This document shows positions 1,665 through 6,420 of a stretch of 11,637 bases of DNA, piece by piece. The translations under genes and the position numbers were made by a program. The first letter of the stretch is position 1. Every line of letters starts with the position of its first letter. This DNA is from Acidimicrobiaceae bacterium (GTDB taxonomy: Bacteria; Actinomycetota; Acidimicrobiia; Acidimicrobiales; Salinilacustritrichaceae), in NCBI GenBank assembly GCA_003476595.1, contig DMTU01000332.1, positions 987-12,623 of the forward strand, in the 5' to 3' direction. Below the pieces are notes generated by a model, which worked only from the letters and a program-made list of their open reading frames with translations, did no database searches and was not told the origin of the DNA.

Positions 1665-2993
1665 CTATCCGTCGCTCGGCGCCACCAGCGCACCGTCGAA
1701 GATCAGCGACATGGTCTCGTCGACGATGCGCTCGTCGGACTCCTGGCCGAACAGCAGGGCCTGCATCGTGCAGAGGTGCACCAGGGAGCGGGCCAGCCGG
1801 ACCGTCTCCATGCGCCGGCGGAGGCGACCCACGGCGCGCAGCTCACGGATGAGCGGGAGGAGGATGCCGGGCAGCGGGACCATGGTGCGGGTGTCGCGAG
1901 GCCACTCCCGCTCCTTCTGCGGCGCCGCCTCGGCGACGATCTGGGCGGCCAGCGCCTCCGTCGCGCCGCGGTTCTCCCGGGCCAGCTGCACGTAGCGGAG
2001 CAGCACCTGCTCGATCCGCTGGATCGGACCCTCCTCCGCGGTGATCGGCACCGACGCGATCGCCTCCAGCTCGGGCATGTGCCGGACCCACGCTGCTGCG
2101 GCGACCGCGTTCACGGTGCCGAAGTGGTGGTACACGGTCGTCGCGCTCACCCCTGCCGCCGCGGCGACCTCGGACACGCGCACGTCCGCCGGGCTCCGGT
2201 CGACGAAGAGGTGGGCGGCGGCGTCCGCGATGTGGCGCCAGGTCTCGATCGGCGCATCGGACCCCTCATCCTCGGTCTCGGCCCGGCGGGGGCGCACCAG
2301 CAGGCGTGACTCGAGCGTCGAGAGCTCGGGGGCCGGTGCGATGTCCGAGCGCTCGACCCGGGGGCGGGTGATCCCGAGGACGACCGCGGTCACCGTGTCG
2401 GAGTAGAGGCCGTCGCGCACCGCGTCCGGGTCGGCCCCGTGTCGCCGCTGGAGGCCCTCGGCGATGGCGGTCATGATCACGGTCAGGTCACGCCCGGTGA
2501 AGGGCGGGAGCATCTCGCGCCCCAGCTGGCGCACGCCCCGCAGGTAGGTGGTCTCGACGCGCTCGGTGAGGGTCCGGTAGGCCTCGCCCAGCACGTCGCC
2601 CGCGGTGCGGGTCGTCTCCTCCCCCAGCGGCTGGTGCCGCACGGACCACAGCAGGTGCTGGAGCACGGCAAGCTCCTCCTCGTCGGCGACGAGACCGGCC
2701 CACTCCTCGGCGGCGGCGGGTCGGATGCCGTCGATGCCCTGCCGGTCGTTCGAGTCCGACGCGGCGCCCGCCAGGCGGTCGACCCGCTCGCTCCATCGGG
2801 TCGCGAAGGCCTGGGCCACGGCCTGGGTGAAGTGCGAGCGGCTCCGGAAGTGGTGGAAGAACGAACCGGTCGTCACCCCGACCTCGTCCGCGATCGAGCG
2901 GGTCTCCACTGCGGTGAGGAGGTCTTGGAACCGCTGCTGCGCGAGCAGAGAGATCCCGGCGTCGATCATCTCTTGCCGCCGGTCGACCGTCAC
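1665..2993 (-). CDS. Double-TetR regulator A (two TetR units in one chain)
   Basis: This is a 442-residue putative transcriptional regulator, about twice the usual TetR length of near 200. Residues about 4-62 form a first TetR DNA-binding domain (DAGISLLAQQRFQDLL, then GVTTGSFFHHFRSRSHF). Residues about 250-305 form a second (TWRHIADAAAHLF, then AGVSATTVYHHFGTVNAV). Each is followed by a helical region of the length expected for a ligand and dimerisation domain. A single polypeptide could thus fold as a covalent pseudo-dimer. The next gene upstream (3257-4522) is a clear paralogue with the same layout. I chose the GTG at 2993 because it aligns with the paralogue's MSDRR start (here VTVDRR) and has TACGTT exactly 8 nt before it. 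The longer reading from 3071 adds 26 unlikely residues and runs into a palindrome. The ligand and target are unknown. One possibility, from the acyltransferase two genes upstream, is a lipid or acyl-CoA signal; that is inference only. Confidence 0.85.
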   Translation of the reverse strand: MTVDRRQEMIDAGISLLAQQRFQDLLTAVETRSIADEVGVTTGSFFHHFRSRSHFTQAVAQAFATRWSERVDRLAGAASDSNDRQGIDGIRPAAAEEWAGLVADEEELAVLQHLLWSVRHQPLGEETTRTAGDVLGEAYRTLTERVETTYLRGVRQLGREMLPPFTGRDLTVIMTAIAEGLQRRHGADPDAVRDGLYSDTVTAVVLGITRPRVERSDIAPAPELSTLESRLLVRPRRAETEDEGSDAPIETWRHIADAAAHLFVDRSPADVRVSEVAAAAGVSATTVYHHFGTVNAVAAAAWVRHMPELEAIASVPITAEEGPIQRIEQVLLRYVQLARENRGATEALAAQIVAEAAPQKEREWPRDTRTMVPLPGILLPLIRELRAVGRLRRRMETVRLARSLVHLCTMQALLFGQESDERIVDETMSLIFDGALVAPSDG

Positions 2994-3001
2994 GGCGGGC
3001 G

Positions 3002-3007
3002 AACGTA
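3002..3007 (-). promoter_or_regulatory. Putative -10 box for leaderless double-TetR gene A
   Basis: The minus strand reads TACGTT, then CGCCCGCC (8 nt), then the GTG start at 2993. No Shine-Dalgarno is present. TAnnnT just before a start codon is the usual mark of leaderless transcription in actinobacteria. No convincing -35 box is seen at 16-19 nt. Confidence 0.5.
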
Positions 3008-3061
3008 GTCGCAGGTCAGGGCGCTTCCGGCCACCAGGACGGCAATTGTCCGGACCGGACG

Positions 3062-3081
3062 CACATAGCACCTGCTACGTG
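3062..3081. promoter_or_regulatory. 20-bp imperfect palindrome, candidate TetR operator
   Basis: The arms are CACaTAGCA and TGCTAcGTG around a central CC; 16 of the 20 bases pair. It lies about 69 bp upstream of the GTG of double-TetR gene A, in the gap between the two paralogues. Size and symmetry fit a TetR-family operator, and autoregulation is the simplest reading. A second short palindrome, GTCCGGAC (3048-3055), lies closer to the promoter. Which protein binds is not shown by the sequence. Confidence 0.4.
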
Positions 3082-3256: not shown

Positions 3257-4522
3257 TCAGCGACCTTCTCGGGCCAGCGCACCCTCGAGCAGCATGCCGA
3301 GCGTGTCGTCGATGACGCGCTCATCGGGTTCGTCGGGCACGGCCAGCACCCGCATGGCCACGAGCTGGGTGATCGATCGGGCCAGGCTGACGCTGTCGAC
3401 CCGTCGGCGCAGGAGCCCCCGGGTGCGCAGCTCGCGCACGTGAGGGATGAGCAGCGACGGGATCGGGGCCACCGGGAACGGGCCCTCGCCGGTCCGGTTC
3501 ACCGATTCGATCACCAGCCCCTCGAGCGCGCCCCGGTTGGCCCGCGCCACCTCGATGAAGCGGGTGAGCACCTGCTCCATCCGCACGATCGGCCCCTCCT
3601 GCGCGGTCAGCGGCTCGGTGGAGATGGCCTCCAGCTCGGGCAGGTACCGGATCCACCCGGCGGCCGCGACCGCGCTGACGGTGCCGAACTGGTGGTAGAC
3701 GGTGCTGGCGCTGACCCCGGCGGCGGCGGCGACCTCGGCCACCTTCACCTCGCCGACCCGCCGATCCGAGAACAAGGGTGCGGCCGCCTCGGCGATGTGG
3801 CGCCACGTCCCGCTCCCCGCCTTCGGGGGCAGCACGCTGCTCGGCGGGCTGACCAGCTGGCGCTCGAGCGACGACAGCTCGCTGCCCTCGACCTGCTCCC
3901 CCACCGGCCGGGTGACGCCGATGACCAGGGCGGACACGAGATCCGCGTACAGCTCGGGCCGGACCGCATCGGGGTCTGCGATCCGACGGGCCTTGAGCCC
4001 GGCACCGATGGCCGTGAGGGCGACCGCCAGGTCGCCGTCGGTGAAGGGCGGCATCATCTCGCGACCGATGGAGGCGAGGCCCCGCCGGTACGCCGGCAGC
4101 ACCGACGCCTGCAGGGCCCGGTAGCGGGCGGCCAGCACGTCGCCGGCAGTTCGGTCGGCATCCTCGCTGATCGGCTGGCCCGCCACCGCGAGGAGGAGGT
4201 GCTGGAGGGTGCTGGACCGCTGCTCCGATTCGAGGCGCTGCCACTCCAGAGCCGCCGCGGCGCGGAACTCGACGCCCTCGGTGAAGCCGTCGATCGCCGA
4301 CAGCGACCGCTGGGTGGATTCCGCCCACAGCTGCTCGAGGCGCTCGATCACCGCGTCGGTGAACTGGCCCCGGTTGCGGAAGTGGTGGAAGAAGGAGCCG
4401 GTGGTGACCCCGGCCTTCCCCGTGATGGAACGGGTGTCGACGCTGGCGAGGAGGTCCTGGAAGCGCTGCTCCAGGACCAGATCCAGCCCGGCGTCGACCA
4501 GCGCAGCGCGACGGTCGGACAT
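3257..4522 (-). CDS. Double-TetR regulator B (paralogue of its neighbour)
   Basis: This is a 421-residue putative transcriptional regulator made of two fused TetR units. The first DNA-binding domain is at about residues 3-60 (DAGLDLVLEQRFQDLL, then GVTTGSFFHHFRNRGQF). The second is at about 238-295 (TWRHIAEAAAPLF, then AGVSASTVYHQFGTVSAV). It matches the gene at 1665-2993 along its whole length, with long shared stretches such as QRFQDLL, GVTTGSFFHHFR, PELEAI and EEGPI/QEGPI. The pair therefore arose by tandem duplication after the internal fusion. In both proteins the second helix-turn-helix ends FGTV, where many TetR proteins have a basic residue (FGTK-like), whereas the first halves keep FRSR/FRNR. 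The two halves may therefore contact DNA differently. The ATG at 4522 has no Shine-Dalgarno but has TAGCGT 8 nt upstream. The upstream neighbour on the same strand is the HAD-PlsC gene, 126 nt away. Ligand and targets are unknown. Confidence 0.87.
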   Translation of the reverse strand: MSDRRAALVDAGLDLVLEQRFQDLLASVDTRSITGKAGVTTGSFFHHFRNRGQFTDAVIERLEQLWAESTQRSLSAIDGFTEGVEFRAAAALEWQRLESEQRSSTLQHLLLAVAGQPISEDADRTAGDVLAARYRALQASVLPAYRRGLASIGREMMPPFTDGDLAVALTAIGAGLKARRIADPDAVRPELYADLVSALVIGVTRPVGEQVEGSELSSLERQLVSPPSSVLPPKAGSGTWRHIAEAAAPLFSDRRVGEVKVAEVAAAAGVSASTVYHQFGTVSAVAAAGWIRYLPELEAISTEPLTAQEGPIVRMEQVLTRFIEVARANRGALEGLVIESVNRTGEGPFPVAPIPSLLIPHVRELRTRGLLRRRVDSVSLARSITQLVAMRVLAVPDEPDERVIDDTLGMLLEGALAREGR

Positions 4523-4648: not shown

Positions 4649-6079
4649 TCAGGTGTCGGTGCCCGGCCGCCGCTCGAGCTCGGACTCCGGGTCGCCCTCG
4701 TAGCCGGGCGGGTAGGTCCGGGCCAGCTCCTCGGCCGTCGGCGTCCGCTTCTTGCGGGACTCCTTGGGCAGCAGCTCGCTGATGGCGGCCATGATCCGCT
4801 TCGTGTCGGGGTCGGGCGAGCGGTACTTGAGGTCGACCGGCTCCCCCACCCGCACCGTGACGAGCGGCGGGTTGGTGACGTTGAGCAGGTTCGGCAGGCG
4901 CGACGAGCGGGGCCAGACCTGCTCGGTGCCCCACATGCCCACCGGGATCACCGGCGCCTTGGTCATGGCGGCCAGCTTGGCGGCGCCCCAGCGGCCCTTC
5001 AGCTCCGGGTCGAAGAACGCCGGCCCACGGGGGATGGTGCCCTGGGGCATGAGGGTGATGAGCTCACCGGCCTCCACCGCCTCGGCGGCGGCGCGCAGGG
5101 GCTCGTCGGAGCCGGAGCCCCGCTCGACCCGGATGCCGCCCATGGCCGTTGCGAGCTGGCCGACGACGGGAGCGTCGAACACCTCCTTCTTGCCGAGGAA
5201 GCGCACGGGCCGGCCCGTCTTGGAGATCGTGAGCGCCATGGCCAGGGTGTCGAAGTACGAGCGGTGGTTGGCGACGACGATGCAGCCGCCCTCGGGCGGG
5301 ATGTTCTCCGTGCCGGCGATGTCGAAGCGGGCGTAGGGCACCAGCTCGGGGCGGGCGAACGGCAGCAGCGCCTCGGCCGGTTCGACCAGGCCGAGCAGCT
5401 TGGGCACGCCCTCGGGCTTGTCGAGGTAGCGGATCGGCCAGCGGCGCAGCGTGGCGAGGGCGAACATGCGCGGGTCGGGGTTCACGACCCTGGGGTGCGC
5501 GACCGCCGACAGCAGCGGGATGTCGTAGAAGCTGTCGGAGTAGGCCCACGACTCGTCGAGGTCGACCCCGTTGGCCTCGGCCCACTCCTCGCAGGCCGAG
5601 AGCTTGCCCGGACCCCACACGAAGTGGCCGTTGATCGTGCCGTCGTAGTGGCCGTCGCTGTCGGTGCCGTAGCGGGTGGCGATGACGTCGTCGAGGCCGA
5701 GCTGGTCGGCGAAGGGCTTCACCAGGTCGTAGGGCGAGGTGGTGGCCAGGACGACCGGCCGACCTTCCTCGCGGTGCTTCTCGATGACCGGTTGGGCGTA
5801 GGCGCCCACCATCGGCACGAGCAGCTCGGCGGCCAGCTCGCCGGCGTGCTGGACGTCGGTCCGCTTCTGACCCTTGCTGAACCTGGCGCCCTGGCGGGCG
5901 AGCAGCATGGCGGGCCGGTTCTCGCCGACCGCGTTGAACAGCCGGTACAGCAGGTTCTCGCCCGGGATCACTCGTTCGCTGATGACGCCGGCGGCTCGCA
6001 GCGCGCCGGTGAGGATCGGACCGCTCGCCCCCCGGAGCAGCGTGCGGTCGAGGTCGAAGAAGGCAGCGGGCGTCGACAT
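4649..6079 (-). CDS. HAD-IB phosphatase fused to PlsC-type 1-acylglycerol-3-phosphate acyltransferase
   Basis: This is a 476-residue bifunctional-looking enzyme. The N-terminal half is a HAD-IB (SerB-like) phosphatase with motif I FFDLDRTL (D9 nucleophile, D11), motif II in LATTSPYD, the motif III lysine in GPGKLS and motif IV YSDSFYDIPLL. The C-terminal half is a lysophospholipid acyltransferase. It has NHRSYFD (the HX4D pair, H272 and D277), GGIRVERG for phosphate binding, MPQGTIPRG (about 344-352) and PVIPVGMWGTEQVWP. It would acylate a lysophosphatidic-acid-like lipid at the membrane face; the phosphatase substrate is unknown. The same fusion is known in mycobacteria, annotated as plsC (Rv2483c-like). 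Motif III has Q where most PlsC proteins have E. The last 40 residues are charged. The ATG at 6079 directly precedes the phosphatase motif and has TACCGT 8 nt upstream. Longer in-frame starts run through the small-RNA region and give arginine-rich nonsense. A C-rich small RNA lies just upstream on the same strand. Confidence 0.92.
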   Translation of the reverse strand: MSTPAAFFDLDRTLLRGASGPILTGALRAAGVISERVIPGENLLYRLFNAVGENRPAMLLARQGARFSKGQKRTDVQHAGELAAELLVPMVGAYAQPVIEKHREEGRPVVLATTSPYDLVKPFADQLGLDDVIATRYGTDSDGHYDGTINGHFVWGPGKLSACEEWAEANGVDLDESWAYSDSFYDIPLLSAVAHPRVVNPDPRMFALATLRRWPIRYLDKPEGVPKLLGLVEPAEALLPFARPELVPYARFDIAGTENIPPEGGCIVVANHRSYFDTLAMALTISKTGRPVRFLGKKEVFDAPVVGQLATAMGGIRVERGSGSDEPLRAAAEAVEAGELITLMPQGTIPRGPAFFDPELKGRWGAAKLAAMTKAPVIPVGMWGTEQVWPRSSRLPNLLNVTNPPLVTVRVGEPVDLKYRSPDPDTKRIMAAISELLPKESRKKRTPTAEELARTYPPGYEGDPESELERRPGTDT

Positions 6080-6199: not shown

Positions 6200-6345
6200 G
6201 GGGAAAACTGAGGGGAGCCGGCCCAAGGGGGGGACGGACCGGCTCCACACCTCAATTTTGGTGCATCCGACGGATGGGGGGACATCCTTGGTGTCGGGCA
6301 CGCTGTGCTCGGAGCGGTCGGGGGGACGATCCGCTCCGGCGTTGT
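6200..6345 (-). ncRNA. 6C-like small RNA with three C-rich hairpin loops
   Basis: Read on the minus strand, this protein-free stretch forms three hairpins. Hairpin 1 is CGGAGCGG/CCGCTCCG (6310-6338) with loop ATCGTCCCCCCGA. Hairpin 2 is GGATG/CATCC (6272-6287) with loop TCCCCC and a sixth C starting the 3' arm. Hairpin 3 (6204-6259) has a GGAGCCGG/CCGGCTCC stem, loop TCCGTCCCCCCCTTGGG and a closing terminator stem. The actinobacterial 6C RNA is defined by hairpins whose loops carry six or more C's. It acts as a trans small RNA that pairs through these loops with G-rich mRNA. In M. tuberculosis the 6C RNA (B11), as I recall, lies next to Rv3661, a HAD-IB protein; here it is also next to a HAD-IB gene. 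Family members typically show two C-rich loops, so a third is unusual. The 5' end is estimated from the first stem and a weak promoter. Alternatives are a cis leader of the HAD-PlsC gene or a protein-bound DNA repeat. Confidence 0.82.
6204..6259 (-). terminator. Intrinsic terminator of the 6C-like RNA, with a 7-C loop
   Basis: On the minus strand AAAA-T-TGAGG, a TGT bulge and GGAGCCGG pair with CCGGCTCC, CCTCA, G and TTTT. Together they make about 18 base pairs, including one U-G wobble. The 3' TTTT run gives a normal rho-independent terminator, which is rare among the GC-rich hairpins elsewhere in this window. The loop holds seven C's, so this stem may be both terminator and antisense loop. 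Confidence 0.75.
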
Positions 6346-6352
6346 GAAGATC

Positions 6353-6382
6353 AGTGTGCCGATCGCACAAGCATCTGTCCAA
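6353..6382 (-). promoter_or_regulatory. Weak candidate promoter for the 6C-like RNA
   Basis: On the minus strand TTGGAC (6377-6382) is followed after 18 nt by CACACT (6353-6358). This would start transcription near 6345, a few bases before the first hairpin. The -35 is good, but the -10 fits TAnnnT only at its A and last T. Alternative sigma factors could use a different site. Confidence 0.3.
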
Positions 6383-6420
6383 CAGTTCTCACAGATGCCT
6401 ACCATCTAGTAGACAGATGG
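6371..6420. promoter_or_regulatory. ACAGATG/CATCTGT repeat cluster, candidate LysR operator
   Basis: GCATCTGT (6371-6378) and ACAGATGC (6391-6398) form a perfect 8-bp inverted repeat around 12 bp. A third copy, ACAGATGG (6413-6420), overlaps the regulator's start codon and also pairs with CCATCT (6402-6407). A smaller CTGT-N3-ACAG (6375-6385) lies inside the first repeat. LysR-type regulators normally bind dyad repeats with several half-sites between themselves and a divergent target. The divergent unit here is the 6C-like RNA. TACCAT (6400-6405) could be the -10 box of the regulator gene. Confidence 0.55.

Follow-up and report, generated by a model that had tools for sequence, protein, structure and literature searches.

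We propose that the window, our term for the whole 11,637-nucleotide stretch of DNA analysed here, encodes on its minus strand a small regulatory RNA (sRNA) with a predicted length of about 142 nt. In the reading that we hold to be fairly probable, this RNA belongs to an Acidimicrobiia branch of 6C-like RNAs, is controlled by a divergently encoded LysR-family regulator, and pairs through C-rich loops with G tracts near start codons. Comparison with related genomes places the element in a real and widespread family of predicted sRNAs, which is coupled to the LysR regulator and has no Rfam match at cut-offs. The features of the locus are collected in Table 1.

Table 1. Predicted sRNA gene of the window and neighbouring features (positions are those of the window)
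Feature	Position	Strand	Basis
sRNA gene, predicted transcript of ~142 nt	6345-6204	minus	fold, R1 and R2 matches; both ends predicted
Predicted sRNA ends	start near 6345; end in TTTT 6207-6204	minus	predicted
Hairpin 1, C6 loop 6325-6320	6311..6337	minus	C run read from sequence; fold; paired stem changes in ANT-92
Hairpin 2, C6 loop 6281-6276	6261..6301	minus	C run read from sequence; fold; paired inner-stem changes in ANT-92
Hairpin 3, C7 loop 6233-6227, terminator-like	6204..6259	minus	C run read from sequence; fold; covariation of family helix 3
Putative -35, TTGGAC	6377..6382	minus	read from sequence; relatives share a like hexamer and its spacing
Putative -10, CACACT, 18 nt from the -35	6353..6358	minus	predicted from relatives
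Palindrome GAT-N7-ATC, putative LysR operator	6394..6406		co-occurrence with the RNA
Divergent LysR-family regulator, PF00126 + PF03466	6423..7373	plus	domains; start codon from conservation
HAD-IB hydrolase fused to acyltransferase (HAD-PlsC), PF12710 + PF01553; not part of the RNA	4649..6079	minus	domains

The core of the element is a series of three C runs on the minus strand (C6, C6 and C7), spaced 44 nt and then 48 nt apart, all of which form hairpin loops in the minimum-energy fold. Folding of 156 nt gave -75.1 kcal/mol (z = -7.2), a stability that none of 200 shuffled sequences equalled. The window has four minus-strand stretches of at least six consecutive C, and the three runs are all but one of them. 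These results bear out the three C-run hairpins described in a first-pass annotation of this DNA. Its further claim, that the last hairpin is an intrinsic terminator, fares differently for the family and for the window. In the window, the long stem of hairpin 3 is followed by only four T, which pair with A's of the extended stem, and a consensus terminator scan of the window did not include this hairpin among its listed terminators. Among three-loop relatives, at least four T lie 3' of the third C run in 31 of 41, compared with 11 of 660 control windows, so the putative terminator is a good reading for the family and a weak one for the window alone. The same annotation held that no protein reading frame explains the stretch. 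Open reading frames do overlap it on both strands; alignment of the sRNA stretch with its counterpart in Acidimicrobiales bacterium ANT-92 contains gaps of 1, 2, 3 and 4 nt, which would break their frames.

BLAST searches of 59 genomes at the DNA level returned strong matches only in the window's own genome and in two others of the genus, Acidimicrobiia bacterium EGI L10123 (99%) and ANT-92 (73%); the remaining matches were chance-like, and a search of a plasmid collection with the element gave none. The ANT-92 copy keeps all three C-loops on changed stems. Two outer-stem pairs of hairpin 1 differ from the window on both sides (C-G to G-C and G-C to T-A), as do four of the five inner-stem pairs of hairpin 2, with pairing kept, and the core of hairpin 3 is nearly identical. 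A pairwise count of changes in hairpin 3 was set aside, since the two stems compared differ in their loop edges.

More distant relatives were compared using two family models. R1 was built from four close members, the window not among them, and R2 from 40 R1 matches of 40 chosen sources. Both models omit the inner stems, since these cannot be aligned column by column, and both model alignments skip hairpin 2 of the window as an insert; MAFFT alignment of distant members misplaces the loops, and N-padded seeds were dropped as well. At E <=1, R1 found 69 of the 73 sources given to it, always on the LysR-divergent strand; the 73 had been chosen for C-loops or a member-like look and include R1's own four. 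One of the matched loci (L077, 51.3 bits) is that of Aquihabitans sp. G128, a complete chromosome that carries no MAG label; C runs in its second and third loops are shorter, and the RNA predicted there would measure about 115 nt. On the window, R1 scores 16.5 bits (E 0.0096), and R2, which has the window among its 40 training rows, scores 43.1 bits over 6205-6345.

With 40 members aligned to R1, 95.6% of cells form the modelled pairs (25 in all), compared with 58.6% in shuffles. Double changes occur in 25 of 25 pairs, and covariation scores 0.770, whereas shuffling gives 0.168 and sliding no more than 0.121; the alignment was fitted to R1, however, and the covariation count therefore leans towards the model. 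Helix 3 of the family is paired in 98.8% of cells, with double changes in all 13 of its pairs. A comparison free of any model used 186 C-run hairpins from 76 regions, whose energies average -18.2 kcal/mol; chimeras that carry the 3' half of another hairpin average -9.5 kcal/mol. Roughly half of the genuine hairpins lie below the lowest 5% of chimera energies, and all five loop-adjacent pairs form in 60% of 196 real runs, compared with 19% when arms are swapped. Compensatory changes in relatives, which had been suggested as a check on the original observation, are thus found both in the model-fitted rows and in the stems of ANT-92.

Counts from R2 searches of genomes are lower bounds: a search of the window's own genome, in which 150 of 7953 candidates were scored, missed the window's copy. 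At least 45 of 296 genomes matched, with the window's own copy again missed, and for this reason we make no claim that the RNA is single-copy. A survey of 80 named loci, which overlaps the genomes behind R2 and hence is no independent test, gave 57 matches, of which 56 lie on the LysR-divergent strand and one on the opposite strand. One genome (G096) contains a second R2 match of 34.7 bits with two C-loop hairpins (G096:C4:63301-63425, minus strand; L335), possibly a second copy of the RNA.

Orthologs of the LysR gene are present in 234 of the 298 genomes of the order (Acidimicrobiia). We inspected 110 LysR-upstream regions, corresponding to the 111 best-scoring LysR places minus one at a contig edge (G249); two of them (L075 and L086) end at contig ends and were counted as zeros. 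Hairpins within 400 nt were scored if they presented C5 or more in the loop and had at least four pairs. On the divergent strand, 34 regions had no such hairpin, 12 had one, 27 had two, 29 had three and 8 had four; on the opposite strand of the same regions, the counts were 97 with none, 11 with one and 2 with two. Any C-loop hairpin was therefore found in 76 regions on the divergent strand versus 13 on the other. At least two occur on the divergent strand in 64 regions and at least three in 37, the latter spanning 16 families by hand count, and in the 34 regions scored as zero the RNA is absent or unrecognised beside LysR. In six of the eight four-hairpin regions the extra hairpin sits further downstream and may not belong to the RNA. 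The largest C-loop count was seen at two loci of one family (L162 and L166; f59), where a C4-loop hairpin is followed by four successive C5-C6 loops, divergent from LysR; L078 and L093 are examples with just two C-loops. As judged from these regions, C-loop number varies among two, three and four, and three is a common form of the family that is not special to this genome.

The promoter region of the predicted RNA offers a candidate operator. The palindrome of the window, GATGGTAGGCATC (6406-6394), starts 24 nt before the -35, and in 47 of the 49 regions in which a -35-like hexamer was recognised, palindrome and hexamer starts are likewise 24 nt apart. Of the 78 regions in which a C5 run stands where it is expected, 74 have GAT-N7-ATC ahead of their first C run; by comparison, it occurs in 1 of 78 control windows and in 2 of the 32 regions that lack a C5 run, and so the RNA, at that place. 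Because the palindrome accompanies the RNA in this way, LysR probably controls it through GAT-N7-ATC as a putative operator, a claim based on co-occurrence and spacing. A promoter scan of the window did not list CACACT, the putative -10. At one locus (L127), which showed no C-loop RNA, a half-kept palindrome and a AACTGTTA remnant lie upstream of LysR, as though the RNA had recently been lost.

This arrangement resembles that of OxyR and OxyS in Escherichia coli, where the gene of a LysR-family regulator lies divergent from that of an sRNA. In the window, too, a LysR-family gene is divergent from the predicted sRNA gene, with a putative operator, recognised by its sequence, between them. The resemblance does not extend to identity of the regulator, which scores 87.6 bits with the NCBIfam OxyR model, below the cut-off of 329, and exceeds no family's cut-off among the best 25 of its 52 matches. 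To our knowledge, OxyS is without C6 loops.

The relation of the window RNA to 6C is best divided into membership and kinship. RF01066, the Rfam model of 6C, scores 20.9 bits on the window, under its gathering score of 47, and at most 36.5 bits among 20 relatives; at the gathering score, Rfam yields no match in the window or in 18 related loci. The window RNA is therefore formally outside RF01066, and the 6C covariance-model hit that the first-pass annotation had proposed as a check falls short of the Rfam cut-off. Kinship of the LysR-linked RNA with 6C is nonetheless likely, to judge from the reciprocal comparison and from gene neighbourhood. We gathered 22 RF01066-model loci from 246 genomes of the phylum, 10 over the cut-off and 12 under it. 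R2, which was built solely from the LysR-linked family, matches 20 of these 22 at their place (E 3.6e-8 to 3e-3), including all 10 over the cut-off, and none of 27 control loci composed of chance BLAST matches of the same total length. The cross-match by itself could be convergence, since C-rich loops are the shared feature.

Gene neighbourhood provides a second line of comparison. An HAD-IB gene, a homologue of the HAD portion of HAD-PlsC in the window, adjoins 14 of the 22 6C loci, including 9 of the 10 that exceed the cut-off, in divergent orientation from 6C. This adjacent gene ranks first among the HAD matches of its whole genome in 12 of the 14 cases and second in two, with a narrow margin in G389; the 14 genomes come from three families. 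The window RNA also has an HAD-IB neighbour, but it points towards that gene, whereas 6C points away from it, and the 6C loci showed no LysR relative within 1.5 kb. Common descent therefore needs a rearrangement, and an inversion or a separate origin of the window RNA must be allowed for. Among studied 6C loci, we take SCO3558 and Rv3661 to be HAD proteins. SCO3558 is reported to lie between the 6C RNA gene and scr3559 (PMC8539372), and mycobacterial 6C to be generally one gene distant from Ms1 RNA (PMC9569102).

What the window RNA shares with 6C (B11 in mycobacteria, scr3558 in Streptomyces) is its predicted short length, hairpins with C-rich loops, two of them in 6C and three here, and a terminator hairpin in last place, weak in the window and better in its relatives. 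It also shares occurrence in Actinomycetota, its nearest named relatives being Acidimicrobiia. B11 of M. marinum is likewise described with three stem-loops (PMC12395582), although two of these are C-rich as opposed to all three in the window RNA. Apart from its score and its orientation, the window RNA differs from 6C in having longer linkers, a LysR partner with a palindrome, and an HAD neighbour that is fused to an acyltransferase. The designation as a 6C-type sRNA with three C-loops is supported by conserved place and strand, paired stem changes, cross-detection with 6C and the HAD neighbour, and does not extend to membership in RF01066.

The strongest competing explanation is that an unrelated sRNA family has become 6C-like by convergence, its C-loops being a simple means to block G-rich ribosome sites and its HAD neighbour a coincidence. 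We consider this unlikely, though worth serious attention. The low RF01066 scores are compatible with it, as are the differing HAD orientation and the lack of a LysR relative at the 6C loci examined. C-rich loops in stable hairpins also characterize alphaproteobacterial ar7 and ar14 (RF02342 and RF02344), as well as Pxr (RF01812), RNAs from phyla other than that of the window RNA; these models score similarly to RF01066 on the window RNA or its relatives, in every case below their gathering scores. Convergence accounts less readily for R2 finding 6C-model loci at their place while ignoring the controls, and for the recurrence of the genome's best HAD match beside 6C, even if within three families. 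Six loci in other Actinomycetota families (L293 and L295-L299) reach 35-40 bits with R2. Their genomes are not among the 20 with an RF01066 match, and some of these genomes may have lain outside the sample searched with RF01066. An HAD-IB gene adjoins the match at L296, and the six may be unannotated 6C relatives.

Less probable still is that the element serves as a cis-acting leader or attenuator of HAD-PlsC and not as a free sRNA, a possibility to which we assign little weight. The HAD-PlsC gene starts 125 nt downstream of the RNA on the same strand, and 6C itself is typed Cis-reg in Rfam. In EGI L10123, however, whose RNA is identical over 6345-6204 and whose LysR is 98% identical, about 3 kb separates the RNA from HAD-PlsC, which makes the RNA a unit independent of that gene. 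A VapB/PIN pair and a DUF222 gene, absent from the window, lie 3' of the sRNA within this interval (L172:2-2685). By our reading of the sequences, 12 of the 30 best HAD-PlsC loci lack the RNA ahead of that gene, yet several of these 12 genomes have it beside LysR (G184, G159, G268, G211, G015 and G046). The frequent T runs 3' of hairpin 3 in relatives also speak against a leader. Finally, we give hardly any credence to a DNA or terminator feature, such as a strong terminator or hairpin cluster, devoid of trans function: long GC-rich hairpins beside a divergent gene would suit it, but C runs remain in loops as stems change pairwise, C-loops lie mainly on one strand, promoter-like boxes precede the RNA, and a terminator has no need of a conserved C loop.

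Under the preferred reading, that of a LysR-controlled, 6C-like sRNA, the LysR protein would bind the palindrome beside its own start codon and control the RNA from a sigma-70-type promoter, and the RNA would end at the third hairpin. Its stems would keep the C6 and C7 runs open in the loops as preformed seeds, and these would pair with G tracts beside start codons, such that ribosomes are blocked and the decay of several mRNAs is promoted. Three loops would probably confer redundancy or allow one RNA to hold several mRNAs.

Such action of three C-loops is no new mechanism. In M. abscessus, either of the two C-rich loops of B11 is reported to suffice for repression of an eccB4 5' UTR reporter with six G (PMC10470900). 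For M. marinum, the terminator loop of B11 is reported as needed and a change of loop 2 as without effect on the tested targets (PMC12395582). On the first-pass suggestion that a triple-loop version could take on more targets or serve as a sponge, the published evidence therefore points two ways. If the window RNA behaves like B11, it should act on G tracts close to ribosome sites, and with a third C-rich loop. In three genomes, 64 occurrences of G6A before ATG compare with 13 of the reversed pattern, an excess that ordinary G-rich ribosome sites could cause, and a G-tract target search gave no convincing target set.

A LysR-linked C-loop RNA family is not named in the titles and abstract beginnings of the open-licence literature that we searched. 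The work on 6C known to us is from mycobacteria, Streptomyces and Corynebacterium; if our reading is true, the RNA reaches another actinobacterial class, likely with a dedicated regulator whose operator is recognisable, and exists in natural two-, three- and four-C-loop versions. The benefit of extra C-loops would then be testable by nature's own series, and in organisms that are not known to us to be pathogens. A bolder extension, which we offer tentatively and with more doubt than belief, is that a multivalent C-loop sRNA under LysR control has long served Acidimicrobiia as a global regulator and shares descent with 6C. Hairpin number (two to four, or perhaps five if a C4 loop is counted) would be an evolving setting of how many mRNAs are held at once, and an ancestral actinobacterial RNA would have stood beside HAD-IB before the classes split.

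Elsewhere on the minus strand of the window, two adjacent TetR-family proteins (1665-3071 and 3257-4522) are unusually long, with listed lengths of 468 and 421 aa. Two TetR_N stretches occur in the former, as if two TetR proteins had been fused.
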